DNA of 47,700 nt from a virus, in IMG/VR virus record IMGVR_UViG_3300032240_002806, positions 1-47,700 of that record, one strand, 5' to 3'. Shown here piece after piece: positions 5,145 to 44,699 of this stretch. Under the pieces are notes generated by a model, which saw only the letters and a list, made by a program, of their open reading frames with translations, was not told the DNA's origin and did no database searches. Every line of letters starts with the position of its first letter. The first letter of the stretch is position 1. The translations under genes and the position numbers were made by a program.

Positions 5145-5467
5145 TGCCATTTCAATATTATAATAGATACAATAATTTAATAGTTAATGGTAGTCAAATT
5201 AATATACCATATGTAACACTGCCGCCAAAAAGCACCGATAAAATGTACATTTATAGAGTTGGTGTTTCTAGGTTAGATAAAGTGTCCCAAACTTATTATG
5301 GTTCACCTTACTTTGGTTGGCTAATTTTACAAGCTAATCCTGAATATGGCGGTTCTGAGGTTAATATACCTAATGATACAACACTTAAAATACCCTTTCC
5401 TTTAACGGCATCTCTTTTAGATTATAAGACAGCACTTCAAACACATTTCTATTATTATGGCAAGTAG
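5144..5467 (+). CDS. gp53-like baseplate wedge protein (LysM-like fold)
   Basis: This 107-residue protein carries the pattern expected of the T4 gp53/LysM-like baseplate family: an RLDKVSQTYYGSPYFGWLILQAN core (D, YYG, W and N at conserved spacing, residues about 44-66), followed by NPEYGGSEVNIPNDTTLKIP, where the 'IP..T.LKIP' ending is the usual LysM strand. T4 gp53 is longer (196 aa), so this is a compact version. Known gp53 joins neighbouring wedges into the hexagonal baseplate. The start ATG overlaps the previous stop by one base, and the 3' end overlaps the next gene by 11 bases, which suggests coupled translation of three baseplate proteins. Confidence 0.75.
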   Translation: MPFQYYNRYNNLIVNGSQINIPYVTLPPKSTDKMYIYRVGVSRLDKVSQTYYGSPYFGWLILQANPEYGGSEVNIPNDTTLKIPFPLTASLLDYKTALQTHFYYYGK

Positions 5468-22147: not shown

Positions 22148-22591
22148 ATGGCAAACGGTAAAACATATGGTGTAACATTTCCATTTAGGGATTCATTTGA
22201 TGGAAAGTATTTAGACCTAACAGATTATGAGGATGAAGAGATAAGAAGTTCTTTAATTCATTTACTTTTAACAAGAAAAGGGGCTAGATATTTTTTACCT
22301 GATTTTGGAACTAGACTATATGAATATATTTTTGAACCTTTGGACGGACCAACATTTAACCAAATTGAAGCTGAAATTAGAAATTCTGTTCAAACCTATA
22401 TTCCAAATTTGCAAATAAATAATATTGCAGTTTATCCGGCAATTGATGATGAACCAGGTGGCTCCGAAGCGGTAAAAACTTTTGACATGCCGGGAAGAGC
22501 GTCTGTAGAATATACTGCAAAAGTTAGAATTGATTATACAATAACAAATAACGTATTTAATTCTAGTGACTTTATAATTATTAATTTATAA
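22148..22591 (+). CDS. gp25-like baseplate wedge protein
   Basis: The 147-residue protein matches the GPW/gp25 family: an N-terminal strand with FPFRDSFDGKYLDLTDYEDEEIRSSLIHLLLTRKGAR, then FLPDFGTRLYEYIFEPLD, a helix (FNQIEAEIRNSVQTYIP) and final strands. The EEIRSSL...LLLTRKGARYFLPDFGTRL pattern corresponds to the gp25 core ('I...i..lL.T..GeR...P.fG..l'). T4 gp25 has 132 residues. It is part of the baseplate wedge and contacts the first sheath ring to start sheath assembly. It is directly followed by a gp6-like gene after 3 bases; these two are also wedge partners in T4. Confidence 0.88.
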   Translation: MANGKTYGVTFPFRDSFDGKYLDLTDYEDEEIRSSLIHLLLTRKGARYFLPDFGTRLYEYIFEPLDGPTFNQIEAEIRNSVQTYIPNLQINNIAVYPAIDDEPGGSEAVKTFDMPGRASVEYTAKVRIDYTITNNVFNSSDFIIINL

Positions 22592-22594
22592 GAA

Positions 22595-24433
22595 ATGGCA
22601 AACAAACAAATTTCATATACTACAAGGGATTTTCAAAGTATAAGAGCTGAACTTATAAATTTTACAAAAACTTATTATCCTGAGCTTGTCGCAAACTTTA
22701 ATGATGCCGCAATATTCAGCGTTTTTATGGATTTAAATGCTGCGGTTACGGATAATCTACACTATCATATTGATAGAAGTTTACAAGAAACAGTCCTACA
22801 ATATGCGCAACAAAGGTCATCAGTTTTTAATATTGCAAGAACATATGGGTTAAAAATTCCAGGACAAAGACCATCAGTTGCATTATGTGAGTTCTCAATT
22901 GTAGTACCAGTTCTTGGAGATAAGGAAGATATTAGATATTGTGGTATATTAAGAAGAGGTAGTCAAGTACAAGGTGCTGGACAAATCTTTGAACTAGTTA
23001 ATGATATTGATTTTGCATCAGATTATAGTTCCGAAGGATATCCGAATAAGAAAAAAATTCCAAATTTTGATGCAAATAACCAACTTGTAAGTTATACAAT
23101 AGTTAAACGAGAGGCGGTTGTTAACGGAATTACAAAAGTTTTTAGAAAAACAATTACAGATGCTGAATCTAGACCTTTCTATGAGGTATTTTTACCTGAG
23201 AAGAATGTGTTGGGAGTAACAAGTGTCCTATTAAAAGACGGTATTAATTATACAAATGTTCCTTCAGTCCAAGAATTTTTAGGAACAACTAATAGATGGT
23301 ATGAAGTACAAGCTCTTGCCGAAGATAGGATTTTTGTAGAAGACCCTACAAAACCATCAGATACGCCTGGTATTAAAGTTGGTAAATATTTTCAAACAAA
23401 TACAAGATTTATTACTGAATTTACCCCTGAAGGATTTTTAAAAATGACATTCGGAGGAGGTAATACATCTACTGATGAATTATTAAGAGAATTTGCAAGA
23501 AATGGAACACCATTAGATTTGGCAAAGTATCAAAATAATTTTTCTCTTGGGTCAGTTTTAAAGGCAAATTCAACCCTGTTCGTTCAATATAGAATTGGAG
23601 GCGGACTTGGAAGTAATTTAGGTGTAGGGGTTATTAAAAGTATTGGAACTGTTAATTTTGTAGTGACTGGACCAGTGAGTAATATTAATACTTCGGTGAT
23701 TAATTCACTTTCTTGTATAAATGTGACTGCGGCAATTGGAGGGGCTAATATACCAACAACTGAGGAGGTTAGAAATTATACTACTTTTAATTTTGCTGCT
23801 CAAAATAGAGCAGTTACAATTAACGATTATGAGGCATTACTTCGTAAAATGCCGTCTAATTTTGGAGCACCAGCTAAAGTTGCAATATCAGAGGAAGATA
23901 ATAAAATAAAAATAAGTGTACTTTCTTATGATACTAATGGTAAATTAATTCCTGTAATATCTGATACTTTAAAAAATAATATTGCAAATTATTTGTCAAA
24001 TTATAGAATGATAAATGATTATATATTTGTTACTTCGGCAAATGTAATTGACCTAACTTTTGATATTTCATTAGTATTAGATGCAACACAAAATCAAGGG
24101 GTAGTAATATCAAATGTTATTGTTTTAGTTGAGAATTTTATGAGTCCTGTTAACAGAGAAATGGGACAAAATGTTAATATATCAGACATAAGAAGAATAA
24201 TTCAATCTGAAAACGGAGTTATAGCAATATCGGATATATCAATATTCAATAACGTAGGAGGTCAGTATTCATCAAGTGAGACATCTCAAAGATATATTGA
24301 TTCTGCAACTAGACAAATTGAATTAATTGATGATACAATTTTTGCTGAACCAACTCAAATATATCAGGTTAGATTTCCTGGACAAGATGTTAGAATAAGA
24401 GTTAAAAACCTATCAACGGTGAACTTCTCTTAA
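22595..24433 (+). CDS. gp6/baseplate J-like wedge protein
   Basis: The 612-residue protein fits the T4 gp6/baseplate J family (T4 gp6: 660 aa). The N-terminus reads ISYTTRDFQSIRAELINF, then YPELVANFNDAAIFSVFMDLNAAVTDNLHYHIDRSLQE, the typical opening of gp6-like proteins. Later regions include GGGLGSNLGVGVIKSIG, PTTEEVRNYTTFNFAAQNRAVTINDYEALL (the conserved J-like 't.ee.r......raVt..Dye.l') and MSPVNREMGQNVNISDI. gp6 dimers form the ring that joins the wedges of the baseplate. Location next to gp25 supports the call. Confidence 0.88.
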   Translation: MANKQISYTTRDFQSIRAELINFTKTYYPELVANFNDAAIFSVFMDLNAAVTDNLHYHIDRSLQETVLQYAQQRSSVFNIARTYGLKIPGQRPSVALCEFSIVVPVLGDKEDIRYCGILRRGSQVQGAGQIFELVNDIDFASDYSSEGYPNKKKIPNFDANNQLVSYTIVKREAVVNGITKVFRKTITDAESRPFYEVFLPEKNVLGVTSVLLKDGINYTNVPSVQEFLGTTNRWYEVQALAEDRIFVEDPTKPSDTPGIKVGKYFQTNTRFITEFTPEGFLKMTFGGGNTSTDELLREFARNGTPLDLAKYQNNFSLGSVLKANSTLFVQYRIGGGLGSNLGVGVIKSIGTVNFVVTGPVSNINTSVINSLSCINVTAAIGGANIPTTEEVRNYTTFNFAAQNRAVTINDYEALLRKMPSNFGAPAKVAISEEDNKIKISVLSYDTNGKLIPVISDTLKNNIANYLSNYRMINDYIFVTSANVIDLTFDISLVLDATQNQGVVISNVIVLVENFMSPVNREMGQNVNISDIRRIIQSENGVIAISDISIFNNVGGQYSSSETSQRYIDSATRQIELIDDTIFAEPTQIYQVRFPGQDVRIRVKNLSTVNFS

Positions 24434-27400: not shown

Positions 27401-30400
27401 CAGGATTTTAGATACTATACAAATACTGCACCCCCAATTTCAGATAGTGATAAAAGGTTTTCGTTACCTTGGAGATTTTTAAGGTCAGACACTACACCAT
27501 TAAAAACATCGGATACAATTATTAATGGAACACCGACTTTTGGTAATGGAATGGGAGTTTATAGAACTTACCAGGTAAACCCTGCCGAGCAAACTTGTTA
27601 TGATGCTTGTTTTAGTGTAACAACTCATCCTGTTGGAAACTATGATGTTGTTAGGTCATTTACACCAAGTCCAAATGTTGAACCAATACCATTTGAGGAT
27701 AGACCTGACCCTAATTTAAGAATCATTTTTTTGCAAAGAGGTGTTGACCCAAATGGTCCTGATATTAATATCAGATATGATTTAAGAAGATATTTTGGGT
27801 TAAATAATGCTTATAGTTTACCACCAACACTTGATTTGGGTTTACCACTTGGACCATCTTATGACATTACAGGGGAATGTATAGTTGAGGGAAGGTTTAA
27901 ACCTAATCAACCAATATTACCGGGTGGAGATGAAAATATTGGATTTGACGCTGCAAATTCTACTGGATGGTTAATGGAAGGAAAGATTACAAGTTATGGA
28001 ATTAATGGAAGACCAAATATAGATAGTAATTATCAATTTAAGGCGGTTCTTTCTGAAAATCAAATTATTAATCCTTTTGATACTGATTCAATATCCCCAT
28101 TAATGGAATCGGAACAAGATTATATAGATGATTATGACTTGTTTAATAATCCATATTTAACACCAATTAACGATGGGAATTATAGTATAAGGGTTTTCGC
28201 GAAATGGGTTGGAACTGTTGACAATCAAATCCACGCATTATCATTTATATTGAAAGATTATACTGATGGAACTGAAGAAATTTTGGATGAAGTTGACGGT
28301 AGTGTAGTTGTATCTTATTATGACCGTACTTTTGATTTACTTTTAAAAGGAGGGCATCAATATAGGTTAATGGCTTCAAATAATACATCTGGAACTATTA
28401 CATTTTTTGCTGACGAATTACAGTGGGTTACGGAGAATACATTTGGACTTAAATTACCAAAACACAATGAAATACAGAATAATTATAACTTAACAAATAG
28501 AGGAACCATATTTTTTCCAAGTCAATTCTTTAAATACGAATCAACGGAATTTACAGGATTTACTACCACTATGCCAACATATTATTCGGCACTAGATGAA
28601 GATACTGTATATTTTTCATCAACTCAAGACCATAGATGGAGACCGTATGGGGGAGCCACAATTTCACCTAATTTTATTGACAATACCAATAGTTTTGGAA
28701 ATCCGATAGGAATAAAAGGTAATTATGGGGATTTAATTAGAAATGTGTACACACAGGTATTAGTACCCAAAAATCCTTCTTCTGATGGATTTAGAATTCC
28801 ATGTTCTTTTAGTTACCTACAAGGAAGTAATATGCCATTAACTTGTGGCAACGAGCCATCAGTTGCAATTTCAACAGATAATTCACATGGATGTGATTGT
28901 AATGAACAAAATCAAGATAGAGTGTGTGCGGGATGTTGTAGATATAGGGTAGAGATGAGAAACAAACTACATGTTTATCATGATTATTATTATGCGTCAT
29001 CTGCAAATGAGGTTGGTTCATATTGGGGTCTAGAATATGTTGAAGGTGGTTCTGCAATGGGGGGTAATTTTACTTTAGATAGGGACTATTCACAAAATTT
29101 ATATGGTGATACGGTTAATTGTGTTTACAGTGACCCCTCCGGACAAGGAATTTTCAGTGATAATAATGACCCAACATGGGCCGGTGGAGGAGGAAATTGT
29201 ACGGACTGTGATAGTCTCAATGGGGGTAATCACATTAGATTAATTGACGTAAGTTTTAACACTCAGTACCTATCTCCAGTTTATGCTGTATTTCCTAATG
29301 CCGACCCAGACCCTGGATTTCAGCAATACTTTAATTCAATTGAAGAAGCTAGAAAATATTGGTACGTCAATCCAAATCATACTATTGAAATTAATAATGC
29401 TTATAGAAATGTATTTAGAACTGATAGATTACCAAGCTCAGACACGCCTCAAACTGACAATAATGGTAATGGATATTTGTTGCATCAAAACAATGGGTTT
29501 TCAATCTATAGAGTTGCAAGCGGATGTACTTTTCAGCAATTAGGAGGAGGTGTTATAGAAACGCCACCTATTAGTGACGTAACTTATAATGATTTACCTG
29601 GCGGGGAAGATAGCCCAATAGCAAATGTTGCAAGGTCTCTTAGTGAGTGTTATTATGCAGTTGACTTAAATAGTTATTATACTGACTCCGATAATAATCC
29701 TATGATTTATGATGAAGGGGGTAGAGGTTATAGTAGGCAAGATGCTGATGTAGGAGCGGATTGGATTTGGTTTAGAAGGAATAGAGGATGTTATAATTTT
29801 GTATCAAAACCACTTGCATCACTATTCCCACACCCAATACCAGGTGACCCGGAAGGTAAATTTTATTGGGATATTGCATCTATTATTGAATGGATACAAA
29901 GATTAAAATTAACATTTGCCCAATGTTTTGAAATCTTCTCACATACGTTTTCAAATAACTGGATAAATGGAACGTTATATGCATTTCCTTTCCAAAACCA
30001 AACAATTTTTGACGACCAAAATTTACCAATTAGAAGATTTTGTAGAGATGTAATATACTTTCATAATCCATTAAACAATTATTATTATAGAAGTAGTCCA
30101 TGGAATGGTACTGACTTTGTTGGTAGACCAATGACAGAAAATGATGATAGAGGTAATAAAAGGAATCTATTATATCCGACAACTATTATGGATATGGGAC
30201 CAAAAAATTCATATATACAAGAACTTGTATATTCTGACGAATATGATGGATATATTGTTAATAGAATACCCAGCACGACATACCAAGATACCACAGATTT
30301 GTTGAATCTTTTTGTGTTGAGCCGTCTTATAGATGCTAACTTTTTACAATTATTAATACCATTACCTGTGGACGAAGGTGGTAATGAGGAAGGTTCTGAT

Positions 30401-31249
30401 GACCCATCTATTGGAGCTATGTTTGCAAATCTTAGATGGAAAAATGGAGAAGTTTATGCATTAAATCTTTTACCTGGACTTATTGATGCGGACTACGCTC
30501 AGATGATATCCATAAATTCTGAGTTTGGAGTTAACGAATATTCTCCTGAGACATATACAAACAATGACATATTTTTTGGTAAAGATGAAGGTGTGCCTGG
30601 GCAACCATTCATATTAGGATTTAATAAAGGTGGAGTCCAAAGAATAACCCGTTCTAACAGACCAGTATTTGCAATATATATGAGCGGGGACAATCAATTA
30701 AGAGATTATATAACTCCAAGAAGAACAATATGGGATGACCACGCTAATTTTGGGGCAATAGTTGATTCTAATTTTACAGATATAGGAACTAAAAGTCAGG
30801 TGGTTCCATTCTATCAATGGAATGTGTTCCATGATAGAGCTCTAGACCCAAGCGTGTTTGGGTATCAATCAAACAATTTTATTACAGAATTTGATTCTAA
30901 TGAATACACAAATAGTGCAACATTTCCTAATGGATTTTTTAATCACAAATACCAAACTTTAGACAGGTTAAATTCTGATTCTGAATATTTTATACCTGAT
31001 GGGAATGATACTTTTTATTATAAAGGTTATCTTATTAATTATGAAATTGTTCTAGACTCAAGTGGTAATCCGGTAGTTGACCAATATAATAATCCTATAA
31101 GAGTGGCCACATATAAAGCCCCACAAAATACTAATAACAGATATACTTTTGGGGCTCCATTTCATTTTTATTTTGGATTAGTACAAGGCGGAACCGCAAT
31201 GGACCTATTTATACAGAAATACGTTGATACAAATATAGTTTATGAGTGA
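24491..31249 (+). CDS. Giant tail/baseplate protein with carboxypeptidase-regulatory-like domain and hydrophobic hairpin (2252 aa)
   Basis: The gene follows gp25- and gp6-like genes, the place of gp7 in T4, but at 2252 residues it is about twice the size of T4 gp7 (1032 aa). Residues about 48-175 look like a carboxypeptidase-regulatory/transthyretin-type beta domain: CGRVFANKGLGLVNARVSIF, then TNDAGDYMIFGIPVGEYNLF. Residues about 586-640 are strongly hydrophobic (DFLFIAINFILSIF, a KPTM turn, then ISLVIFLHVLAFLW and FAAVLILVWGIQ), like two membrane helices. Cys clusters follow: CERCRC at 680-685 and CDC...CAGCC from 1468. The rest is Asn/Tyr/Pro-rich beta-type sequence. Its stop overlaps the next gene by 8 bases. 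A wedge or host-facing tail role is inferred. Confidence 0.7.
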   Translation: MPNSYRIRTQVGVDKVLQVNLDQDYDTLEVLSMAIFPNDVYTRNCADFGVVCGRVFANKGLGLVNARVSIFIPIDQIDESDPIISTLYPYKGFEDFNEDGYKYNLLPYSPSHSGHVPVGTFPDRIDALTNPSVIEVYDKYYKFTAKTNDAGDYMIFGIPVGEYNLFMQVDLSDIGEFSLTPQDLVRMGLATENQIDGTKFKFSENYSELPQIVTLKKIVQIAPFYGQDGICQHYITRTDFDITSEANVEIIPTSVFIGSLISAKDKKKLKRRCRVPSKQGWLCDMISGPGQIEAIRHTVFSDDQGFPVLEQYRLQNDGKLIDENGAWMVELPMNLDYVYTDENGLRQISPDGSVGVPIRARYRFKIKWQQSPSLREENKRAYFLVPNIKEQGWVDNTDPNYSFFTTQTFTLPHVTPANNEPPSSGPFDYVLPTTDYYYNFQDSVNISSYVVLVDGIERPDMKDTIPMNLLQSSVVAIRYTLIDPLLDATFIVQRLGESEFKMQSSYAFSISWSDYGTPDMVQEAVNCEDRFYEFQYNKVYTVSQLIDRYSNRYFPQKSIQIKHVTDNKCEGQFNTFPTNDVYYRYDFLFIAINFILSIFKPTMISLVIFLHVLAFLWPVFAAVLILVWGIQQLVYGICRLLERINLRDKPCNQPKPLADLLKNPFKNIAVPLFLYTEDGCERCRCKVDDQELDEANNQVLYDLVVNQEQIDSVNVSYLADVALISSYNVLTNNAYSTYTPSYINNDLQYADAVGVMLAGNGANDYKTRKLPLWRGNINGVNTTILSTQLTFPERLNLFNTKAKYFDNLTVNEGSDSQEDRVFRSISPGNTGWNQVKVTWNPDVNDTDTIFHFDNLIVLLVDNTGFTKGDILTFQNPDDSLDPNVNVALGRKSYPGIATVRYANPNTSQPDIPLKVTFYDMTGAYPNNSGVVGIGPGGVVLSQLQSSSGDLERSCYPMDIEYFQVIKEMSYQDFRYYTNTAPPISDSDKRFSLPWRFLRSDTTPLKTSDTIINGTPTFGNGMGVYRTYQVNPAEQTCYDACFSVTTHPVGNYDVVRSFTPSPNVEPIPFEDRPDPNLRIIFLQRGVDPNGPDINIRYDLRRYFGLNNAYSLPPTLDLGLPLGPSYDITGECIVEGRFKPNQPILPGGDENIGFDAANSTGWLMEGKITSYGINGRPNIDSNYQFKAVLSENQIINPFDTDSISPLMESEQDYIDDYDLFNNPYLTPINDGNYSIRVFAKWVGTVDNQIHALSFILKDYTDGTEEILDEVDGSVVVSYYDRTFDLLLKGGHQYRLMASNNTSGTITFFADELQWVTENTFGLKLPKHNEIQNNYNLTNRGTIFFPSQFFKYESTEFTGFTTTMPTYYSALDEDTVYFSSTQDHRWRPYGGATISPNFIDNTNSFGNPIGIKGNYGDLIRNVYTQVLVPKNPSSDGFRIPCSFSYLQGSNMPLTCGNEPSVAISTDNSHGCDCNEQNQDRVCAGCCRYRVEMRNKLHVYHDYYYASSANEVGSYWGLEYVEGGSAMGGNFTLDRDYSQNLYGDTVNCVYSDPSGQGIFSDNNDPTWAGGGGNCTDCDSLNGGNHIRLIDVSFNTQYLSPVYAVFPNADPDPGFQQYFNSIEEARKYWYVNPNHTIEINNAYRNVFRTDRLPSSDTPQTDNNGNGYLLHQNNGFSIYRVASGCTFQQLGGGVIETPPISDVTYNDLPGGEDSPIANVARSLSECYYAVDLNSYYTDSDNNPMIYDEGGRGYSRQDADVGADWIWFRRNRGCYNFVSKPLASLFPHPIPGDPEGKFYWDIASIIEWIQRLKLTFAQCFEIFSHTFSNNWINGTLYAFPFQNQTIFDDQNLPIRRFCRDVIYFHNPLNNYYYRSSPWNGTDFVGRPMTENDDRGNKRNLLYPTTIMDMGPKNSYIQELVYSDEYDGYIVNRIPSTTYQDTTDLLNLFVLSRLIDANFLQLLIPLPVDEGGNEEGSDDPSIGAMFANLRWKNGEVYALNLLPGLIDADYAQMISINSEFGVNEYSPETYTNNDIFFGKDEGVPGQPFILGFNKGGVQRITRSNRPVFAIYMSGDNQLRDYITPRRTIWDDHANFGAIVDSNFTDIGTKSQVVPFYQWNVFHDRALDPSVFGYQSNNFITEFDSNEYTNSATFPNGFFNHKYQTLDRLNSDSEYFIPDGNDTFYYKGYLINYEIVLDSSGNPVVDQYNNPIRVATYKAPQNTNNRYTFGAPFHFYFGLVQGGTAMDLFIQKYVDTNIVYE
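31205..31212 (+). promoter_or_regulatory. CTATTTAT motif before the 594-aa gene
   Basis: The octamer lies within the end of the 2252-aa gene, 29 bases before the ATG at 31242, about the same distance as for the copy before 43545. Being inside a coding region, it may be fortuitous. Confidence 0.2.
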
Positions 31250-33026: not shown

Positions 33027-34068
33027 AATTAAAATATTAGATACTGACTTAACTAAAGGAATTGTAGTTCCAATTGGAATGAATTGGGATTTTTTAGACA
33101 GAGAGTCTTCAATTTTAGATGAGCAGCAAAACATAGTTGACCAAGTTATTGGCCAACCAACCAACTATGAGTTATCAAGATTCTCACATGACGCAACTGG
33201 GCAAGGATTTAGTAGGTTAACTTATAGATTTAATTTTGCTTCAACTATAGAGGGTCCATGGGAGAATAGTTATTTATCTAAATTCACTGACACTCAAGTT
33301 AGATATGCGACCGACGCATTTAATAAATCCTTTTTTAAATTGGATTTTTATAACTCAATGGACCCAAAAACACAAAAAAATTATCTGACAGTTATTCTCC
33401 CAACAAGGATGAGCACAAGTATTCTTGAGTCTACATGTACTGAATATTTTTTTACTTTTTTAATGGATGGTAAATTAACTTATACTGATTGTTGTAATAA
33501 TGAAAAAATATTAAATGTTATTCCTGGAATACCAGGACTGTCCCCAACAAGAAGAATTTGTGTTAAATTAGGGACACAGGCAGTTTTTAGTTATTTGGAT
33601 TTAGACAGAGATGGACTACTTTATATAAGATATTTTATAACAGTAGATTTTCCAAATGGAAGTGGAGGAAAATTTGCAATCTCAGAAATAGGACCTTGTT
33701 CATGTGATACAGGACTTCCATCAACTGAATCAACATCAAGACCACTTGTTACTCCTACAATACTATTAGACCATACTGGAAATAAAGAAGGGTTTTATCT
33801 TCATTGGTTTGAAGATGTTACAGTAACTAATATTACAACTTTTTATATGACAGCTAAGTTTTTTAACGCGGCTACAGGTCAGTATATAAAATTTATAAAT
33901 GAACCACAAACTAGCTATTCAAATTTATATAGAATACCAAATAAAGATTTCTATTATATTGTTAATTTGGATTATAACGCAAAAACTTATCAAATCATAA
34001 GCACCCAAACAGATAATGCTACTGACGAAATAACTTGGGCTGAATATATTAACCCTCCTATTGGATAA
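33013..34068 (+). CDS. Tail/baseplate protein (351 aa)
   Basis: A 351-residue protein with an N-terminal segment (KIKILDTDLTKGIVVPIGMNWDFLD) and beta-rich remainder. Cys residues group in the middle (ESTCTEYFF, YTDCCNNEK, RRICVKLG, GPCSCDTG), unusual for a cytoplasmic phage protein and suggestive of a compact or disulfide-bonded virion domain. The C-terminal third (from residue about 240: PTILLDHTGNKEGFYLHWFED) could be an Ig-like or lectin-like domain. No family is recognised. It shares 14 bases with the gene before it and one base with the gene after it (TAATG). Confidence 0.65.
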   Translation: MDVNKIKILDTDLTKGIVVPIGMNWDFLDRESSILDEQQNIVDQVIGQPTNYELSRFSHDATGQGFSRLTYRFNFASTIEGPWENSYLSKFTDTQVRYATDAFNKSFFKLDFYNSMDPKTQKNYLTVILPTRMSTSILESTCTEYFFTFLMDGKLTYTDCCNNEKILNVIPGIPGLSPTRRICVKLGTQAVFSYLDLDRDGLLYIRYFITVDFPNGSGGKFAISEIGPCSCDTGLPSTESTSRPLVTPTILLDHTGNKEGFYLHWFEDVTVTNITTFYMTAKFFNAATGQYIKFINEPQTSYSNLYRIPNKDFYYIVNLDYNAKTYQIISTQTDNATDEITWAEYINPPIG

Positions 34069-35471
34069 TGGAAACTTTTAAAATTAAAATATCACCTGAA
34101 GTTTTAAGAAACGAACTTACGACTCAAACTTATAGTGGAAATACTTTTGGTTATTACAGCGGATTGTCTTATGTTCTAAGTTCAGGTACTGTTAATTTGG
34201 GTACTTGGAGAAGTGGTAATCCCGCAGATAAAGGAAATTTAGGTGCCGATTACCCACTTTCACTTAATTCTGAATATTTTTATATCTGTAAAACGGCAAG
34301 TACCAATTTTAATTGGTCTAATTATTTATTAAACGTAAAAACAGGTTCCACAATATCCTTTATATATGAAAATCTTAAATTTGAATTATTAACCACTGGA
34401 ATACCTATTAGTGCAAATAAGTGGGTCACTTTCCCAATTAGTGCCGTCACAGTACCAACAATATTACCTAATTTTAGAAATGTTGAATTATCAATAACCC
34501 AACCCGACACATCTCAATTAATAGATTTATCAATACCTATTTTACTTAAACAGGATTATGAAGATATAGGATATTATTCACCATTTGACGGATATATCTC
34601 TCAACTTTTTGAAGATGTTAATTTTACTTTTACCGCAAGTACTGCGGCTCCTTTTGATGTTTTAATATACAATACATCTAAGAGTGGAACAACTTATTTA
34701 AAGAATACAACATACCGAGTTGATTGGGGGGATTTTACACCTATTGAAAATGTTGAGGTGTATATTCCAGAGTCCGTACTTCATTCTTATGTTGATATTG
34801 GAGTTAATACTGGTTATACAATATCTCTTACAGGATATACGACGATTGGTTTGTATGTTATTAGGAAAAATATACAAATACCATTTGTAGATATTCCTAA
34901 TACTAACCCTTATGGTACAATATCATTTATATCTAATAATAATTCTTGGTCAGCAACTCCATCCTCTCAGAATTTTATAGGAATAATGGATTCTGAGAAT
35001 ACTATAGAGGCACAATCTAGTTGGAATTTTGTAGACGTTCCATATATTGTTTCAGGATTTACTCAGTCTAGACTTGAAGAATTAAAAGTTTATGGAACAA
35101 ATCCATATATTAATGATTTGGTAATTAATTTGCCTGATGGTACTACAGGAGTAGTCAATTCGCAAAGTCCTGAGTATACAGGATATACAATTAACAATCA
35201 GAGCTATATTGATTTTTCTGCTGGAACTAGTGTATTTGTTGCTCAATCATATGGATTCTCAGAAGTTAATATAACTGCAACAACAATTACTAAATTGGAA
35301 TATCTAATGAATGTAATTGAGCAGCCAATAATCCAATCAAATGTATTTATTGAAAGAGGAAAAATATCAGGAATGGAGAATTTTAGGAGAATTGGTGAAG
35401 TTAATAATACGGGTTCATTAAAAACTTATGGCTATAAGTTTTTTGATGTTAGAAATTATAATGATATTTAA
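34068..35471 (+). CDS. Tail protein with a PKD-like domain (467 aa)
   Basis: A 467-residue beta-rich protein. Around residues 205-265 the sequence resembles a PKD domain: TYRVDWGDFTPIENVEV with the WGD core, then VLHSYVDIG and YTISLTGYTTIGLYVI ('W.DG ... H.Y...G.Y.v.l'). The C-terminal segment (VFIERGKISGMENFRRIGEVNNTG and a final FFDVRNYNDI) looks like a conserved structural ending. PKD domains are extracellular binding or spacer modules, fitting a tail appendage. It starts by one-base overlap with the previous stop. No enzyme motif was seen. Confidence 0.65.
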   Translation: METFKIKISPEVLRNELTTQTYSGNTFGYYSGLSYVLSSGTVNLGTWRSGNPADKGNLGADYPLSLNSEYFYICKTASTNFNWSNYLLNVKTGSTISFIYENLKFELLTTGIPISANKWVTFPISAVTVPTILPNFRNVELSITQPDTSQLIDLSIPILLKQDYEDIGYYSPFDGYISQLFEDVNFTFTASTAAPFDVLIYNTSKSGTTYLKNTTYRVDWGDFTPIENVEVYIPESVLHSYVDIGVNTGYTISLTGYTTIGLYVIRKNIQIPFVDIPNTNPYGTISFISNNNSWSATPSSQNFIGIMDSENTIEAQSSWNFVDVPYIVSGFTQSRLEELKVYGTNPYINDLVINLPDGTTGVVNSQSPEYTGYTINNQSYIDFSAGTSVFVAQSYGFSEVNITATTITKLEYLMNVIEQPIIQSNVFIERGKISGMENFRRIGEVNNTGSLKTYGYKFFDVRNYNDI

Positions 35472-36405: not shown

Positions 36406-39354
36406 ATGTCATATACTTGTCCTCCTCAGAAACGATTATCTGAAAGTAGTATTTTTGATAATATAGTCGGATTACAAGTAATCCAAGGGGGAGGACTTAC
36501 GCAAGGTAATTTCCAGCTGACAACATCTACAACTGAAAAAAGTAATAGATTTTTTGATACTGGAAAATTCTCACAACCTTATACTTTAGACAATTTAAGT
36601 ATATTATCAACTGTACAAGCTAAAGTAATTAATGAAGTTAATTTTAGAATATTTCCTAATTTTGATGAAACTAATGTTTTAAATTTTGTCGCTTACGGAC
36701 CTTTAAGTAAAAGATTTTCAGCCGCGGTTTTAAATATCATTAACCACTTCCCAGCGGCTATAGAATCTTCACAAATAAGACTTGATTATACTACAGGTAA
36801 TACTGCATTTAATATTAGTTATGATTCTTCTGAGGATTTTACTTTTTTACAATTAGACGCCTCAACAGTCAAAAATCCTTTTTCAGTTGATTTTTCAAAA
36901 AGAGCGTCAATAAATTTATCATCATTAGAGTTTGAAGTATCTAAATACAGAAATTTTACGTCATATTATACAAGTTATATATTAGATACGCCAAATGGTA
37001 ATTTTAGTGTGGTGGATATGACAGGAACTACTTCGGTAACTGCCGGAACCCTATCAATATTAGTTAAAGGAAATCCATTTAGCGGGGCCACAAGTACAAG
37101 ACAATTACTGGTAATTAGACCAAATGATTTTACAGTTAATGAAGTTTTTAATTTAGAACTTGATGAGGTAGAAGAATTATTACTTAATAGGACTTCATAT
37201 CCAATTTATACATCCGAATTTCAAGTTAAAACAGAATCATCCGACGGAAATGATTTCATTAAATACCAAGCCGTGACTTGGCCACTTGATGGTTCGTGGA
37301 ATATTGATATTAAAACACCGGCATTTACAAAGTATCTCCAAAGTTTGGATGAGATAGGAAAGAGTTATGATTTAAATCAAACTGATTTACTATCTAGATT
37401 TTATACTACAGAATCATTAAAGGAATTTGATACGATTGACGGTAAAGTTAATAAGACATTAAAAATATATGGAAGAAGTTTTGATGAAAGTAAAAAATAT
37501 GCCGATTCAATCTCTCACATGGTTTCAGTTAATTATAATGTTGGTGACGATGTTCCATCAAAATTATTAACAAATGTTGCGGAAACTTTAGGGTGGAAGA
37601 CAAATATATCCCCTGTACAAAGCGATGGATTCTTATCTACACTGTACCAACAAAATTCTAGTAATTTTCTTGGACTCTCAAGTGGAGTTTCCACTGATGA
37701 ATTAAATTATCAGTATTATAGAAACCTAATATTAAATTCGGCTTATCTGTTCAAGTCAAAAGGAACAAGAAGAGCTGTAGAATTTTTAATGAATAATATA
37801 GGTGCTCCTGAGGCTCTTTTTGAATTTAATGAACATGTTTATTTAGCTGGAGGAAAATATCCTATTTCTAATTTTAATGCATTATATACGACAATTACGG
37901 GAGGAACTTTTACAAGTTCTTTACCAGCGTTAGACCCAAATAATACCTATAGATTTAATGGTGCCCCCTACACGGCTTTTACATCTTCAACATCAATAGT
38001 TGATGTTACTTTAACAAGGGAAGATTATCCTATAGATTCAGAGGGGTATCCCAAAGTACCGCAAGACAATGATAGTTTTTATTTCCAAAAAGGTTCTGGA
38101 TGGTTTGAGTCCACCCCACAACACAGAAGTCCCGAGATAATAGACTCAACTGGAAGTGTTTTTACAGGTAATAGTCCATCAGTTCAGACCTCACTTGAAC
38201 CTTTTAGTTATGGTGAAAAATATTTAAATAGATTTAGATATTTTCCTTATTTAGGTGATGGATTTGAATTACAAAAAACAATTGATAATAAAAAATCTTG
38301 GATTGATGGGCAATTTTTAAGAAAAAATTCCGCAGGTAACTTTGACGCTTACTACCAAGTTGCTGATGATAGATTATTATTAAATGTAAAAAATGTTGAT
38401 TTATTTTTAAATCCGGCTCAAGCATTGGTATATGATGTATGGTATATGTCTAATACACAAAACTACCCAATTCCATATAGTGGTATTACAAAATTACCTG
38501 AAACAGAAAATCCATTCATATTTGAAAATTATGACTCAACCGTTATTAATCCAAAACCACAGATAAAAGATTTTTTTGAATTTAAGGAAACGTTTTGGAG
38601 AAATATGATTAACGTTAGACACAGACAAGAAGCCTCTGACGGTAAAACTGGAGGATACCCAACTCTTCAGAACATTTACTACAAATATCTTACAATGTAC
38701 AATGATGTTGGTATTGAGAATAATAATTTTTCATATTCGGCAATGACCAAATACATTAATGGTATTGGTGATTTTTGGATTAGACTTGTTGAGCAATTTA
38801 TACCGGCAAGTACTATTTGGAATACAGGAACTAGAATAGAAAATTCAATATTCCATAGACAAAAGTTTGTATATAGAATGCAAAGAGGATGTTTACCCGT
38901 AGATTTTAATATACTTGGACCACAGGTATTTGGAGGATTTGCCCCAAATGACTGTAACACCACTGATGTTACAGTTAATTTAACTTACGATTCAAACGAG
39001 ATACAATTCCAAATAGGTGCAATTTTAAATCAAGTTGATTGTGGAAATACTTTACCATTTGTAATATCACTACAGTATGGATTTGAGCTAATTATTGTAA
39101 AAAATTCTCAAACTTATACATTGCAATATAGTAATCCTTCAGTTTACCAAGGGTCTAATTATATTATTAATAGTACTGATTGGAATGATTTTATATTACA
39201 AGGTATCGGATTTCTAATGGATGAGTTTACAAATATTAGTGTTACTGCTAATTATGAAAATAATATACTTACATTACAGTCACAAGATTGTATTCAGATA
39301 CAATCTATAGATTTTAATTTACAATTTATAAACGTTCAATTTGGTTGTCTTTAA
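36406..39354 (+). CDS. Large tail protein with a gpI-like helical segment (982 aa)
   Basis: The 982-residue protein has a beta-rich N-terminal half, then helices around residues 325-480. There the stretch NLILNSAYLFKSKGTRRAV and EFLMNNIGAPEALFEFNE is reminiscent of the 'kGT..a...l...lG' segment of P2 gpI-type tail proteins, which link baseplate to fibres. A block at 730-820 (FWRNMINVRHRQEASDGKTGGYPTL, FWIRLVEQFIPASTIWNTGTRIEN) appears to be a second conserved module. The C-terminal ~130 residues, after a short Cys-containing linker (FAPNDCNTTD), form another beta domain with paired Cys. The gpI resemblance is weak. The gene sits just before the SprB-repeat and fibre genes, as a connector would. 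Confidence 0.65.
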   Translation: MSYTCPPQKRLSESSIFDNIVGLQVIQGGGLTQGNFQLTTSTTEKSNRFFDTGKFSQPYTLDNLSILSTVQAKVINEVNFRIFPNFDETNVLNFVAYGPLSKRFSAAVLNIINHFPAAIESSQIRLDYTTGNTAFNISYDSSEDFTFLQLDASTVKNPFSVDFSKRASINLSSLEFEVSKYRNFTSYYTSYILDTPNGNFSVVDMTGTTSVTAGTLSILVKGNPFSGATSTRQLLVIRPNDFTVNEVFNLELDEVEELLLNRTSYPIYTSEFQVKTESSDGNDFIKYQAVTWPLDGSWNIDIKTPAFTKYLQSLDEIGKSYDLNQTDLLSRFYTTESLKEFDTIDGKVNKTLKIYGRSFDESKKYADSISHMVSVNYNVGDDVPSKLLTNVAETLGWKTNISPVQSDGFLSTLYQQNSSNFLGLSSGVSTDELNYQYYRNLILNSAYLFKSKGTRRAVEFLMNNIGAPEALFEFNEHVYLAGGKYPISNFNALYTTITGGTFTSSLPALDPNNTYRFNGAPYTAFTSSTSIVDVTLTREDYPIDSEGYPKVPQDNDSFYFQKGSGWFESTPQHRSPEIIDSTGSVFTGNSPSVQTSLEPFSYGEKYLNRFRYFPYLGDGFELQKTIDNKKSWIDGQFLRKNSAGNFDAYYQVADDRLLLNVKNVDLFLNPAQALVYDVWYMSNTQNYPIPYSGITKLPETENPFIFENYDSTVINPKPQIKDFFEFKETFWRNMINVRHRQEASDGKTGGYPTLQNIYYKYLTMYNDVGIENNNFSYSAMTKYINGIGDFWIRLVEQFIPASTIWNTGTRIENSIFHRQKFVYRMQRGCLPVDFNILGPQVFGGFAPNDCNTTDVTVNLTYDSNEIQFQIGAILNQVDCGNTLPFVISLQYGFELIIVKNSQTYTLQYSNPSVYQGSNYIINSTDWNDFILQGIGFLMDEFTNISVTANYENNILTLQSQDCIQIQSIDFNLQFINVQFGCL

Positions 39355-39357: not shown

Positions 39358-41547
39358 ATGGGTTTAATTAATTATAGTTATATATTAACTGGAGATTGTG
39401 GTAACACTTCGTCAGGTGCAATTTCTTTAAGTTTTACTGCGACTTCACCACCTGTCTATATAACGTGGACTAATCCTATTTCAGGATTAACATTTTCATC
39501 TCAAACCTTAACTGAAAGTCCTTATTTTGTTAATGGATTAAGTGGAGGGAGTTATAGTTTCACATTAACCGATACTGATAACCCTTCTGGACAACAAGGT
39601 GTTAATTTTTTTGTAACAACATCAAGTACTATAAATGTTAATACTGTAACTGATTGTAATTGTGGACAACCAAATGGGATAATTTTATTTAGTAGCCCCC
39701 AAGTCTATGGTAGTAGTAAATTTACGTTATATGACATCAATAATAATTTTGTAAAAAGTGCCACAACTACAAATTCTACTTTTGCATTTTCTAGTTTATT
39801 TCCAAATTTATATTATGCGACTTTGGAAGATTCTGGAGGTTGCATCGGGACAAGTGAGGTTGTTATAGTTAAAGATAGTCTAACCTTTGATTTTGGTTTA
39901 TATACTGTAGATAGCCCATTTTGTCAAGCCGGAAGAGGTCAGATACACGTAACAGGAATGACAGGAGTACCACCATATACCTATCAATGGACAAGAAATA
40001 TTCCTTCAACATACAATGTAACAACAAGCTCAACAACTTTAAGTGTTACAGGATTAACTTCTGGAAGTTATGGTGTAACTATAACTGATGCCTCAGGGTG
40101 TCAAAAAACAGTTAATACTGTTGTTAATCCATCACCACAATTAGGATTAATAAATTATGTTGCCCAAAGCCCTTCATGTTTTAATGGTAACGGAGCACTA
40201 ACTTTTAGTTTTTCAGGAGGAGCGGCTCCATATTATTATCTTTTAAGTAATGGTGACTATCAAATAATATTATCTAACCAAGTTACTTTTACTGGATTAA
40301 GTTCAGGTAACTATACTTTAAATGTTACTGATTCGGCACTTTGTACTACAACTACTAATGCAACATTACTTTCGCCAAACACATTTACTGTATTAAGTAC
40401 TTATAAAAATGATGCAAATTGTATTAGATTAGGTACAATTACTGTAAATTTAGAAGGTGGTACTTCTCCTTATTTTTATAGTTTATCTGGAAGTAATGGA
40501 ACTTTAATTAATCAAAATTCACTTATAAAATCCACCAGTTTTCCTTCTTTAAGTCCCGGAGATTATTATTTATCAATAAGAGACAGTAAAAGTGCTTGTA
40601 CGTACACTGAAAACATTACAATTGAAAATTTATATAATTTTGATATTACAACATCAGCAACTTCTACAAACTGCGGAGGAAGTGATGGAACCGTAACCGT
40701 AACCACCTCAAATCCATCAAGAGATGACTTACAATTCACATATTCATTATCTAATGGGATGACATCCACTCAAACAACTACAGCTAGTTATACTTTCTCA
40801 TCATTATCATCAGGATTTTACACACTTTCAGTTACAGACCAATTCGGATGTATTAGAACGGAAAATATTTATATACAACCTTCCGAATTAGTTTCAGTAC
40901 TTCTTTACCCAACAAGTTGCAATGAAGGTAGTTCTGGAACAATCACTGCGTTAATAAAAGACGCTGACGGGCCTTTTGATTTAACTTGGAGTGAAAATGT
41001 TAATGGACAAACAGGAATTTTTGTTACAGGATTAACCGCTGGAACCTACACACTTACAATATCTAACAATCAAGGATGTGTACAATCAACAAACACAACT
41101 GTTTCTTGTAATCCTTTAAGTGCGTCAAACTATACTGTAAAATTTAAAAACGGAAATATTAATAATATTCAGTCTAGCAAATTTACATTAAAAAATATGA
41201 TGTATTCAGGATATACATCATTAGTCTCAAATGCAACAAATTGCTCTTTAAGTAGTGCCACTTTTTCATTTAAAGTGAATATTGCAGGAATTGATTATCA
41301 GTTTCCTTTTTATTTTACTCAGTCATTTAATAATATTCCCGATTTAGGATATTTTGCAAGTACAATTGAAAGTGCTGTTTTAACCATACCAAATATAGTA
41401 AGTTGTATTGTTGACGCTAATACAAATGCCATAAGTATAGTTTCATCAGAGTCTGGAGGATATAGGGATGAAACTATAAGTTTTACAATTATTATAGATT
41501 TTAAAATTAATTGTACTTCAGTTAATGGAGTGATATGCACACCTTAA
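39358..41547 (+). CDS. SprB-repeat (Ig-like) tail adhesin (729 aa)
   Basis: About seven consecutive Ig-like units of roughly 80 residues fill residues 1-583, each built as 'C....G.i.v...GG..PY.Y......L..G.Y.vtvtD..GC'. The clearest, from residue 188, reads CQAGRGQIHVTG, PPYTYQW, LTSGSYGVTITDASGCQ. This matches the SprB repeat of the flavobacterial gliding adhesin SprB and related surface proteins; the first two units are more diverged. A different C-terminal domain covers residues 584-729. There is no signal peptide or secretion-type C-terminal signal, consistent with a virion part rather than a secreted adhesin. It would extend from the tail as a string of beta-sandwich domains for host contact. 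It starts 3 bases after the previous stop. Confidence 0.75.
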   Translation: MGLINYSYILTGDCGNTSSGAISLSFTATSPPVYITWTNPISGLTFSSQTLTESPYFVNGLSGGSYSFTLTDTDNPSGQQGVNFFVTTSSTINVNTVTDCNCGQPNGIILFSSPQVYGSSKFTLYDINNNFVKSATTTNSTFAFSSLFPNLYYATLEDSGGCIGTSEVVIVKDSLTFDFGLYTVDSPFCQAGRGQIHVTGMTGVPPYTYQWTRNIPSTYNVTTSSTTLSVTGLTSGSYGVTITDASGCQKTVNTVVNPSPQLGLINYVAQSPSCFNGNGALTFSFSGGAAPYYYLLSNGDYQIILSNQVTFTGLSSGNYTLNVTDSALCTTTTNATLLSPNTFTVLSTYKNDANCIRLGTITVNLEGGTSPYFYSLSGSNGTLINQNSLIKSTSFPSLSPGDYYLSIRDSKSACTYTENITIENLYNFDITTSATSTNCGGSDGTVTVTTSNPSRDDLQFTYSLSNGMTSTQTTTASYTFSSLSSGFYTLSVTDQFGCIRTENIYIQPSELVSVLLYPTSCNEGSSGTITALIKDADGPFDLTWSENVNGQTGIFVTGLTAGTYTLTISNNQGCVQSTNTTVSCNPLSASNYTVKFKNGNINNIQSSKFTLKNMMYSGYTSLVSNATNCSLSSATFSFKVNIAGIDYQFPFYFTQSFNNIPDLGYFASTIESAVLTIPNIVSCIVDANTNAISIVSSESGGYRDETISFTIIIDFKINCTSVNGVICTP

Positions 41548-41599: not shown

Positions 41600-42565
41600 A
41601 TGAGTCAAGTTACTATAAATACCATTAGTGGTCAGTCACCTTATGTAATTTATATATGTGATGGATTTGGGTTAAACTGTAAACAAGTTTATTCTGGTTC
41701 AACAACAGTTCCCCCACCCCTAACTTTTGATTTACCATCAGAATTAACGCATAGTCCAACAGTAATTGTAAGGATTATTGACGCTTTAGGATGTCAAGAA
41801 GACCAATCTTTTAGTTGTATAACCCCAACACCAACAAATACCCAAACCCTAACACCAAGTATTACCCCAACTATTACGCCTTCAAATACTGTAACCCCAA
41901 GCATAACACCAAGTTATGTTGCCCCCACCCCAACACCAACACCAAGTATTACGTCAACAATTACTCCAACACCTTCAATTACTCCTTCTACTACTCCACA
42001 GCCACAACAAGTTGCATTAATTATTGTTGAACCTTTTTCTGCCTCAACTGGTATTGGTCAATATATGAATAGTGTCGGCAGTAAGTTTAAAGGGTTTACA
42101 AACGGAACCTCACCTTCAACTAGCTCAACGACATTTAATATTGAGATGAATAATTACTTGAATTTTAGCGGTTGGTCTAACAATGAAATGTATTGGATTG
42201 GAATTGGTATCTCAACATCCTCATCAGGTTTTGATGGTGCTGGAAATCCAAGATTACTAAATAATTTTTATACTACAGGGATAATGCAAAACTCATTGGG
42301 TGACAAAGCTTGGTATACAATTATGATACCAACAGCTCAAACTCAAGGGTATATACAGAAACAAATAGGGATAAGCCAAGGGGACTCCCATTCTTTTACA
42401 AATGTATATCCTGATTCATTTATTTATTCAAATACTTTTACATATTCTGGGTACAATTTTAACAGAACAACTTACAGAGTTTACACAACATTCCCATCAA
42501 CCGAGTTTCTTTTAGATAATACACAATATCCCATAACCTTTAAAGGCATATGGGTAGGATTATAA
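41600..42565 (+). CDS. Tail protein with a Thr/Pro linker (321 aa)
   Basis: Residues 1-73 form an Ig/SprB-like unit that again ends in a D-x-x-GC motif (RIIDALGCQEDQSF). Residues about 75-135 are a low-complexity linker of TPTPT, TPSIT and TPSNT units. Residues 136-321 are a separate globular domain rich in Ser, Gly, Tyr and Phe, with VALIIVEPFSASTG, MYWIGIGIST and YPITFKGIWVGL. The shape is a receptor-binding tip on a flexible stalk. Thr/Pro linkers are common in surface proteins and could be glycosylation targets in Bacteroidota. A 52-base gap with AAGTATTTAATAG precedes the gene. No family is known to me for the C-terminal domain. Confidence 0.65.
   Translation: MSQVTINTISGQSPYVIYICDGFGLNCKQVYSGSTTVPPPLTFDLPSELTHSPTVIVRIIDALGCQEDQSFSCITPTPTNTQTLTPSITPTITPSNTVTPSITPSYVAPTPTPTPSITSTITPTPSITPSTTPQPQQVALIIVEPFSASTGIGQYMNSVGSKFKGFTNGTSPSTSSTTFNIEMNNYLNFSGWSNNEMYWIGIGISTSSSGFDGAGNPRLLNNFYTTGIMQNSLGDKAWYTIMIPTAQTQGYIQKQIGISQGDSHSFTNVYPDSFIYSNTFTYSGYNFNRTTYRVYTTFPSTEFLLDNTQYPITFKGIWVGL
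41822..42004 (+). repeat. Thr/Pro-coding low-complexity repeat
   Basis: The DNA is a degenerate array of ACNCCA/CCAAGTATTAC units coding for TP, TPS and TPSIT blocks within the 321-aa tail gene. Near-identical short units make it prone to length change by slippage or recombination. Confidence 0.7.
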
Positions 42566-42568: not shown

Positions 42569-43498
42569 ATGTCACAATTACCATATAAAAATCCAATAAG
42601 TCCAGTACAAACTGTAGGAACTCCTTCAGTATCTAATACTGCATTATATGGAACCCATTTTAGTATTTATGGTGTTGGTGGTTTTATGGAGGTTTATAAT
42701 GTGTCGGACCTTTATTACACTGTACCATCAGGAACTTATGGAACAATAGAGTATAGTGGTAATACGATACCTATTAATTTTTCTAAAGGGAGTGGTACTA
42801 CCTTTTCTGTTGATACATTAATTCTTAATTCTGATAACATTTCATCAGGTAGAAGAAGACTTGGAATGCTTGCCTATGTTTACGAGACTGACCAAATATA
42901 TCAGTTTAATATTGATAATTATGATAGTTTGTGGGCATCGGCAACGGCTTCAACTGGAACTGTTATAACAAATCAATTTGGGACAATTGTAAGAGCTGAC
43001 TCGTCTGAAAATACTAGTTTTATTTCATATTGGACTTCAAATGCTGTTGAAGGAATAAGTGGTGCCACAAGCTCAACTGCGGTTTGGAAAAAACTTGCAA
43101 CAGGTGGAGGAGGTGGAGGAAGCGGAATAACAGGAGGAACCTTCAACATCAACACAGGTGACCTTAACCTTAATTCAACAGGCGGAACAATAACTATACC
43201 TGGATTTTTATATGGTTCGGGTACAACCAATACAATTCCAAAATATCAAACATCAGATGGGTTTACAGATAGCCAAATATTTGATAATGGAACTTCAGTT
43301 GGTATTGGAACCACATCTCCTGACTCAAGTGCAATACTTGATTTAAGTGCGACAACCAAAGGGTTTTTACCCCCAAGAATGACCGAGACAGAGAGACTTG
43401 CAATCGTATCTCCAACAATTGGACTTATGGTTTACCAAACAGATGAACCCGATGGAGTATATGTTTATAAAGCTTCAGGTTGGATTCAGATGATATGA
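42569..43498 (+). CDS. Tail fibre protein (309 aa)
   Basis: The 309-residue protein opens with a beta-rich segment (MSQLPYKNPISPVQTVGTPS), has a Gly-rich hinge (TGGGGGGSGITGG, about residue 178) and then fibre-like Thr/Gly repeats (TGDLNLNSTGGTITIPGF). The C-terminus (about 245-309) carries GIGTTSPDSSAILDLSATTKG, FLPPRMTETERLAI, PTIGLMVYQTDEPDGVYVYK and a final SGWIQMI. This ending is common in Bacteroidota surface and phage fibre proteins and recurs in the next gene. It probably forms the trimer tip or cap of a fibre. It begins 3 bases after the previous stop. It likely contacts the host surface; the receptor is unknown. Confidence 0.75.
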   Translation: MSQLPYKNPISPVQTVGTPSVSNTALYGTHFSIYGVGGFMEVYNVSDLYYTVPSGTYGTIEYSGNTIPINFSKGSGTTFSVDTLILNSDNISSGRRRLGMLAYVYETDQIYQFNIDNYDSLWASATASTGTVITNQFGTIVRADSSENTSFISYWTSNAVEGISGATSSTAVWKKLATGGGGGGSGITGGTFNINTGDLNLNSTGGTITIPGFLYGSGTTNTIPKYQTSDGFTDSQIFDNGTSVGIGTTSPDSSAILDLSATTKGFLPPRMTETERLAIVSPTIGLMVYQTDEPDGVYVYKASGWIQMI

Positions 43499-43507
43499 TA
43501 CTTCTTA

Positions 43508-43515
43508 CTATTTAT
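43508..43515 (+). promoter_or_regulatory. CTATTTAT motif before the 384-aa fibre gene
   Basis: The octamer lies in the 46-base gap after the first fibre gene, 29 bases before the ATG at 43545. This gap is one of the larger ones in the tail block, so an additional promoter here is plausible. Confidence 0.3.
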
Positions 43516-43544
43516 ATGTAAGATAATTTTCTTAAAATTTTATA

Positions 43545-44699
43545 ATGTCAGACATTTCAAGCCAGTTAATTAAAGATAGTTACAATTATGTTTTACAATC
43601 TGACTTATCAACTGGAGTAGTATATAGAATTGGAGGAACAATTCCTGTTAACCCTATTTTCCAATCGGGACTTACGGTTAATAGCGGTTTCACGTATTCA
43701 AATGGAACTGAAGGTGTTGGATATGCTCTTTTAACTGATGGAACAGGTTATGCTTATTGGGCTCCTGTATCTGCGGCAACTCCTTCTTCAGGTGTTACAA
43801 GTGTAACGGCAACAAATGGATTATCAGGTAATGTTACAACAGGTGCGGTTACAATAGTTAATACGGCACCTGACCAAACCGTAACTATAAGTGGTGGAAC
43901 AGGTATAACAACAGGAGGAACATACCCAAACTTTACAATAGTAAACTCGGCTCCAGATAGAACTGTTACAATTTCAGGAGGTACAGGTATAACGACAGGT
44001 GGAACATATCCAAACTTCACATTAGTTAACTCGGCTCCTGATAGAACGGTAACTATTACAGGTGGAACAAGTATTCAAATTACAGGAACTTATCCCGACT
44101 TTGGTGTAAATTATACAGGGGCGACTACAATACAAGGTATCACGGGGATAACTGGAACTAGCGGAGTATCGGCAAGCACAACTGATTATGTTACAACAAT
44201 AATTAACACCGCGCCTGACCAAATTGTGACAATTAGTGGGGGTACGGGAATTACAACTGGAGGGACATATCCAAACTTTACATTAGTTAACTCATTACCT
44301 GATAGAACAGTTACAATTACAGGTGGAACCAATATTCAAATCACAGGAACATATCCTGATTTTGGTGTAAACTTTACGGGAACAACAACAGGAGGAACCG
44401 TTAGTGGTGATTATCTTCCATTAAGTGGGGGAACTGTAACAGGAGGAACAATATTCCAAAGCGGATTAACAGCAAATACATTTTATTCTTCAGGTCAAGT
44501 TGGTGTTGGAACATCAAATCCAAACGCTGCTGCTATTATAGAAATAGCATCAACAACTCAAGGTGTTTTATTTCCAAGAATGACAAAGGTACAAAGAGAT
44601 GCAATTACTTCTACACCTATTGGACTTATGCTTTTTGTAACTGACGATAATGAAGGTTTGTATATTTATAAAACAAGTGGATGGGTTCAAATAATTTAA
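43545..44699 (+). CDS. Repeat-rich tail fibre protein (384 aa)
   Basis: The 384-residue protein has a short N-terminal part, a shaft of five 28-residue repeats (residues 106-189 and 221-276; units begin N-[TS]-[AL]-PD-[QR] and hold VTISGGTGITTGGTYPNF or VTITGGT.IQITGTYPDF), a GTTTGG hinge, and a C-terminal tip paralogous to that of the previous gene: GVGTSNPNAAAIIEIASTTQG, PRMTKVQRDAI, PIGLMLFVTDDNEGLYIYK, SGWVQII. The repeated Thr/Gly strands suggest a beta-helical trimeric shaft. A stretch of 31 residues separates repeat groups three and four. The next fibre gene begins 3 bases after its stop. Confidence 0.8.
   Translation: MSDISSQLIKDSYNYVLQSDLSTGVVYRIGGTIPVNPIFQSGLTVNSGFTYSNGTEGVGYALLTDGTGYAYWAPVSAATPSSGVTSVTATNGLSGNVTTGAVTIVNTAPDQTVTISGGTGITTGGTYPNFTIVNSAPDRTVTISGGTGITTGGTYPNFTLVNSAPDRTVTITGGTSIQITGTYPDFGVNYTGATTIQGITGITGTSGVSASTTDYVTTIINTAPDQIVTISGGTGITTGGTYPNFTLVNSLPDRTVTITGGTNIQITGTYPDFGVNFTGTTTGGTVSGDYLPLSGGTVTGGTIFQSGLTANTFYSSGQVGVGTSNPNAAAIIEIASTTQGVLFPRMTKVQRDAITSTPIGLMLFVTDDNEGLYIYKTSGWVQII
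43860..44372 (+). repeat. Five 84-base coding repeats in the fibre shaft
   Basis: Units lie at 43860-43943, 43944-44027, 44028-44111, 44205-44288 and 44289-44372. Two types occur: ISGGTGITTGG and ITGGT.IQITG. The order A-A-B-spacer-A-B suggests duplication of an A-B pair. Such repeats can expand or contract by recombination and change fibre length. Confidence 0.85.

Follow-up and report, generated by a model that had tools for sequence, protein, structure and literature searches.

A seven-unit SprB-type protein with a phage-specific cap, encoded in the baseplate block of a T4-like phage, as a probable attachment arm

How does a protein composed of repeats named after the gliding adhesin SprB come to be encoded in the tail region of a virus, and what would it do there? 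The window analysed here, the whole stretch of 47,700 nucleotides (47.7 kb), is part of the genome of a T4-like phage. The ribonucleotide reductase large subunit that it encodes is nearest to those of Tenacibaculum and Cellulophaga phages (approximately 40% identity, with the next group at approximately 29%), and its gp6-like wedge protein matched only six phage records, four of which belong to Flavobacterium phage immuto. A Shine-Dalgarno-like motif was found at 2 of the 25 starts checked; weak use of this motif is usual for Bacteroidota. Based on the ribonucleotide reductase, the baseplate relatives and the weak Shine-Dalgarno use, the window likely derives from a large phage that infects Bacteroidota.

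The gene in question, referred to below as the arm gene, and its setting are as follows.

22148..22591 (+): gp25-like baseplate wedge subunit (phrog_261, 1.5e-17)
22595..24433 (+): gp6-like baseplate wedge subunit (phrog_219, 1.6e-18; Flavobacterium phage immuto baseplate wedge protein, 9e-41)
36406..39354 (+): wedge-like gene of 982 aa in the gp7/gpI position, upstream neighbour of the arm gene (hhalign to proteins near gp6)
39358..41547 (+): arm gene, seven SprB-type units, 729 aa, ATG start (PF13573; host-only profile; colinear homologues)
41600..42565 (+): downstream gene, product of 321 aa containing a Thr/Pro-rich TPTPT linker; joined to the arm C-terminus in contig L029
44703..47699 (+): tail spike/virion structural protein, cut by the window end (phrog_6002, 1.4e-25; phrog_4636 tail spike, 2.6e-22)

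The gp25- and gp6-like genes on the 5' side and the spike-like gene on the 3' side form a T4-like baseplate block around the arm gene, in agreement with the initial annotation, which had placed it within a tail block. Its place inside a block that also holds gp25, gp6, the wedge-like neighbour and a spike is what would be expected of a baseplate or tail-fibre component. Three very large proteins of the window (24491-31249, 201-5144 and 5457-11693; 2252, 1647 and 2078 aa) gave no PHROG match. Another gene of the tail block, 34068-35471, is variable in length: its product, which aligns over its last 188 residues, has 467 aa here and 846 aa in both of the nearest relatives.

The initial annotation counted about seven SprB-like units, and the number proved to be exactly seven. 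A host-only profile of 250 units, all from cellular Bacteroidota proteins and not fully independent of the phage set because these cellular units were picked with a profile of phage units, resolves seven back-to-back domains at aa 8-97, 92-184, 179-268, 264-351, 345-436, 428-519 and 511-596. The best of 2000 shuffles of the arm protein reached 11.4 bits with this profile, and none of the other ORFs of the window scored above 4.6 bits. The units, with their host-only profile scores, and the segment that follows them are listed below.

39379..39642 (+): unit 1, divergent, without the second cysteine; aa 8-95; 16.9 bits; PF13573 0.3, Ig_J 0.003
39643..39903 (+): unit 2, divergent; aa 96-182; 17.5 bits; no Pfam match alone
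39904..40158 (+): unit 3; aa 183-267; 51.5 bits; PF13573 5.4e-4
40159..40401 (+): unit 4; aa 268-348; 57.1 bits; PF13573 2e-7, 30.9 bits, above cut-off
40402..40653 (+): unit 5; aa 349-432; 36.8 bits; PF13573 6.7e-6
40654..40899 (+): unit 6; aa 433-514; 38.2 bits; PKD_4 0.01; AF2 pLDDT approximately 93, all beta
40900..41109 (+): unit 7; aa 515-584; 45.3 bits; PF13573 0.011
41110..41538 (+): C-terminal cap module, not an SprB unit; aa 585-727, approximately 143 aa; kept in 71 of 75 homologues; no Pfam match

The arm protein thus consists of seven Ig-like units of the SprB/PKD kind in direct succession, closed by a cap. PF13573 (SprB repeat) matches the whole protein at E=6.7e-10 with 38.9 bits (cut-off 28) over five stretches, and none of 14 control genomes searched with the same model gave a match. 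Taken unit by unit, the PF13573 match was clear in units 3, 4 and 5 (5e-4, 2e-7 and 7e-6; unit 4 alone above the cut-off), weak in units 1, 6 and 7 (0.3, 0.8 and 0.01) and absent in unit 2; under Pfam's own model, units 1, 2 and 6 are divergent. The first cysteine and the cysteine of the 'GC' motif in units 3-6, as well as Cys629 and Cys719 of the cap, are 98-100% conserved. In addition, among 54 non-redundant proteins the members of the pairs Cys521/Cys584 and Cys683/Cys727 are jointly present or absent, and each pair may represent a single evolutionary event. This conservation and covariation would fit disulphides, and the parity of the total cysteine number is not kept among the homologues.

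The predicted fold agrees with an Ig-like assignment. An AF2 model of units 6-7 and the cap, computed with 23 sequences, has a pLDDT of 76 and a pTM of 0.55, with unit 6 above 90 and a low-confidence stretch before the cap; a model of the whole protein with four close sequences (pLDDT 53) was discarded. Among solved structures, the best Foldseek match is the grappling hook protein of the Bacteroidota member Aureispira, an adhesin (4e-6), and the lambda central tail fibre was matched at 1.6e-4, while no solved tail-fibre structure matches the whole arm protein over its full length. Among viral models, the match is a UniProt entry labelled 'SprB repeat' (2.4e-26). The nearest cellular units are found in Saprospiraceae, Flavobacteriaceae, Chitinophagales and others, and by structure and sequence the units also fall among phage Ig-like domains (T5 decoration protein, Hoc, lambda gpJ). 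The label 'SprB-type' holds insofar as these are PF13573-type units; the link to gliding adhesins that it implied is misleading, since PF13573 is a short motif of very many Bacteroidota surface proteins.

The initial annotation also stated that signals for type IX export are missing, and this is borne out. No NCBIfam sorting domain matches the arm protein, its N-terminus (MGLINYSYILTGDC) does not have the form of a signal peptide, and direct reading of the sequence (MGLINYSYILTGDCGNTSSG) finds no charged plus hydrophobic signal segment. Matches to Por_Secre_tail inside the units were short, internal and below the cut-off, and were rejected as a sorting domain. Secretion of SprB needs a TIGR04131 domain (PMC5682007); with this type of sorting domain absent, the arm protein is not an SprB adhesin.

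The initial annotation overlooked the cap, the approximately 140 residues after the seventh unit, which form a separate conserved module. In fact, the C-terminal 150 residues or so of the upstream 982-aa protein (38893-39351) are homologous to it (hhalign P=1e-7), and the relationship persists when only distant phages are compared (P=4.6e-10). By comparison, the best of 60 column shuffles gave P=0.055, and other families of the block gave 0.01 or worse. A genome scan with two cap peptides from close relatives found no cellular relatives, a hint that the cap may be phage-only among the sequences seen here, and neither the cap nor the 982-aa protein had a relative among the named phages searched. 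The presence of one module in two adjacent structural proteins suggests that it could serve as a docking site between them.

The 982-aa protein itself has no named family, no Pfam match and no match to T4 gp7; profiles of the families of the block likewise found no match among T4 proteins. Its residues 300-480 match proteins of 1265-1400 aa, unnamed themselves, that are encoded two or three genes downstream of gp6 in immuto, Mel-JY01 and LR756508 (hhalign P=5e-6, 5e-6 and 1e-4, respectively), and a motif containing KGT is common to all of them. This suggests a wedge role of the gp7/gpI type. A PDB match of the 982-aa profile to PHIKZ129 was set aside at E=0.1.

The same arrangement recurs widely. 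Scans of viral contigs yielded 3 close relatives, then 19, and in the end a relative of units 3-4 in at least 294 contigs, of which 80 were fetched. In all, 75 distinct viral proteins were compared. The 22 homologues that were aligned are colinear over all seven units and the cap; the cap is present in 71 of the 75, and two of the four capless proteins are short ORFs (376 and 567 aa). In 72 of the 75, the arm gene directly follows the 982-aa gene. A second survey was seeded from the 982-aa gene to avoid selecting on SprB, and a full-length arm homologue came next at all 19 loci with a readable following gene, some of the loci being near-copies of one another; four loci end before that gene. 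In a distant contig (L061), the gene after the 982-type gene encodes a 1760-aa protein with a PF13573 match.

Based on these results, the arm protein is probably a conserved, baseplate-proximal component of the virion that serves host attachment, alone or via tip modules. The seven Bacteroidota-type Ig-like units, closed by the phage-specific cap, would form a semi-rigid arm anchored at the baseplate or close to it, either via the wedge-like 982-aa protein or next to it. The arm would reach outwards and attach reversibly to glycans or proteins of the host surface, by itself or by holding tips; among relatives, fusions occur at either end of the arm protein.

Because the sequence matches include head decoration proteins (T5, Hoc) and a neck whisker protein, the position in the virion is inferred from gene order. 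A different location is therefore worth weighing, in which the arm is a Hoc-like or whisker-like decoration of the capsid or collar with weak, non-essential sticking to glycans or particles. The Hoc-like family phrog_3945 matches approximately 60 aa of unit 3 (5e-7), the T5 decoration protein and Hoc are matched at 7e-4 and 0.07, the neck whisker protein 9occ is matched with a profile at 6e-4, and the whisker gene of T4 also comes after the baseplate block. However, these matches to decoration proteins are generic Ig-domain matches of short length, and two features point to the baseplate: the wedge-like gene lies directly next to the arm gene in 72 of 75 cases, and the two proteins share the cap module. 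No match to a Hoc capsid-binding domain was seen in the arm protein. We consider a head or neck location doubtful.

What follows the cap differs from phage to phage. Among the 71 capped homologues, 36 stop at the cap, 6 extend past it by 10-100 aa and 29 by more than 100 aa. These C-terminal extensions, present beyond the cap in approximately 40%, are interchangeable and mostly follow Thr/Pro linkers of the TPTPT type; they contain DUF285 repeats (L057, 2.3e-46), small cysteine-bearing domains (L006) or other segments without a Pfam name. The arm protein of the window terminates immediately beyond the cap; in its two nearest relatives (90% identity), another 280-381 residues follow. In two relatives, the array is fused behind a large vWA-domain protein, giving chains of 2340 and 2944 aa (L029:3933-10955 and L030:1863-10697) that join vWA domains, Thr/Pro linkers and the arm. 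The 2340-aa protein matches both the arm gene and the 41600 gene of the window, and this fusion of the arm in front of the 41600 counterpart suggests that the two proteins of the window work together. In the baseplate arm proposed here, the tips would thus be fused after the cap in relatives and supplied in the window as a separate protein, the linker-bearing product of the 41600 gene, and the vWA protein of the two relatives would stand in front of the arm.

Several further observations concern the same region. The C-terminal extension of one homologue (L082:5464-8649) contains a Hint/intein-like stretch (CFIKGTKITLASG), recognised by reading alone and with no Pfam match. The near relative G001 encodes a second SprB-bearing protein of 809 aa downstream in the same tail region (50977-53406, minus strand; L062:10977-13406), which maps beyond the window end, and several other relatives have at least two. 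Within 42569-44699 of the window, the genes at 42569 and 43545 have C-terminal modules that recur in G001 in genes of a different arrangement, resembling fibre-module shuffling.

The exchange of tips raises a variant of the attachment arm, not exclusive of it, in which the units are only a passive Ig stalk, with all binding left to the tips and the neighbouring spikes. The recurrent C-terminal extensions on Thr/Pro linkers and the spike-like genes that follow the arm gene are in its favour. The 36 of 71 capped homologues that end at the cap count against it, although the next gene could supply their tip, and we regard a purely passive role as unlikely.

The origin of the units bears on the remaining alternative. 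A unit tree was computed from 91 phage units of 13 divergent phages and 80 cellular units. For each of positions 1, 2, 3, 4 and 7, a single branch separates the units of the 13 phages from the rest of the tree, and positions 5 and 6 need two changes. A tree with all phage units constrained to one clade reached a higher likelihood than the freely searched one and was not rejected (p-AU 0.957); the free quick tree, which scatters phage units among host units with 8 changes, was consequently dismissed as a search failure. With 81 columns, the tree shows neither one origin nor several, nor the direction of the original transfer. The grouping of unit positions with their counterparts across divergent phages nevertheless indicates that the array is older than this phage group. 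The proposal that the gene had been captured from a host is thus unsupported for any recent event: the cap (71 of 75), the synteny (72 of 75) and the position-wise grouping speak against it, and the GC content of the arm gene equals that of the window. The arm gene is most likely an old phage gene, a conserved and syntenic core gene, and not a fresh copy of SprB.

A host-derived adhesin mimic, whose host-type units would bind SprB-like filaments or the gliding/type IX machinery, appears very unlikely: the units do belong to the same family as Bacteroidota surface adhesins, Flavobacterium mutants in the gliding machinery are phage-resistant (PMC5682007) and this machinery is a suspected phage receptor in F. 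columnare (PMC7345892), but the unit positions are old and phage-wide and the sorting domain needed by SprB is absent. From the resistance of the mutants and the suspected role of the machinery, gliding adhesins are possible receptors. One further reading makes the arm a functional equivalent of the adhesin filaments of the host: its units would engage the mobile adhesins of the surface, or the carriers of these adhesins, bound virions would be moved along by the gliding cell itself, and the fixed seven-unit array would have been kept for this purpose. This is a speculation to which we give hardly any weight.

If the attachment arm is read correctly, the family represents a widespread, so far undescribed adhesion arm in phages probably infecting Bacteroidota (at least 294 viral contigs). 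It would be a candidate means by which phages recognise gliding bacteria, for which few phage receptors have been identified, and its anatomy (the fixed seven-unit array, the cap in common with the wedge-like neighbour and the exchangeable extensions) is testable. It also follows that a phage protein labelled 'SprB' in a database need not be a captured gliding adhesin.

Compared to PF13573 adhesins of Bacteroidota, the arm protein has the same unit length, paired cysteines, the signatures GGxPPYxYxW and GLxAGxYxVTVTDxxGC and a whole-protein score above the cut-off; it differs in having neither signal peptide nor type IX sorting domain, and in its seven fixed positions and phage cap, whereas SprB adhesins have long variable arrays. 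A phage-encoded protein of 1670 aa in the 642-kb record LR756502.1 (L008:13819-18831) similarly contains tandem SprB units (14 matches), but its start resembles a signal peptide and a type IX type B sorting domain is present (2.4e-13); this phage record thus encodes an export-type adhesin with many SprB units. T5 pb10, T4 Hoc and other phage Ig-like domains share with the arm an Ig-like fold (predicted here) on a virion protein and weak sequence matches; pb10 and Hoc, however, are head proteins of few domains, and the matches are limited to one or two arm units. A clear relative is A0A6J5LD72 (714 aa, uncultured Caudovirales, UniProt 'SprB repeat'), with 40% identity over the modelled part. 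This entry and A0A6J5LDA4 are annotated by domain only; in the literature searched, we found no description of the cap, synteny or tips of such 'SprB repeat' phage proteins and no paper linking SprB, phage, virion and Bacteroidetes. The BACON proteins of crAss-like phages (PMC10136315) also carry Bacteroidota-type Ig-like repeats, are tail-proximal and are thought to bind the host surface. They belong to another domain family and phage group, and BACON was absent among the Pfam matches of the whole arm protein and of its single units; the arm differs further in its fixed unit number and in the cap shared with the wedge-like protein. The BACON repeats in crAss-like phage tail proteins are the closest precedent, and the arm protein would, by this comparison, be a phage Ig-like repeat fibre.
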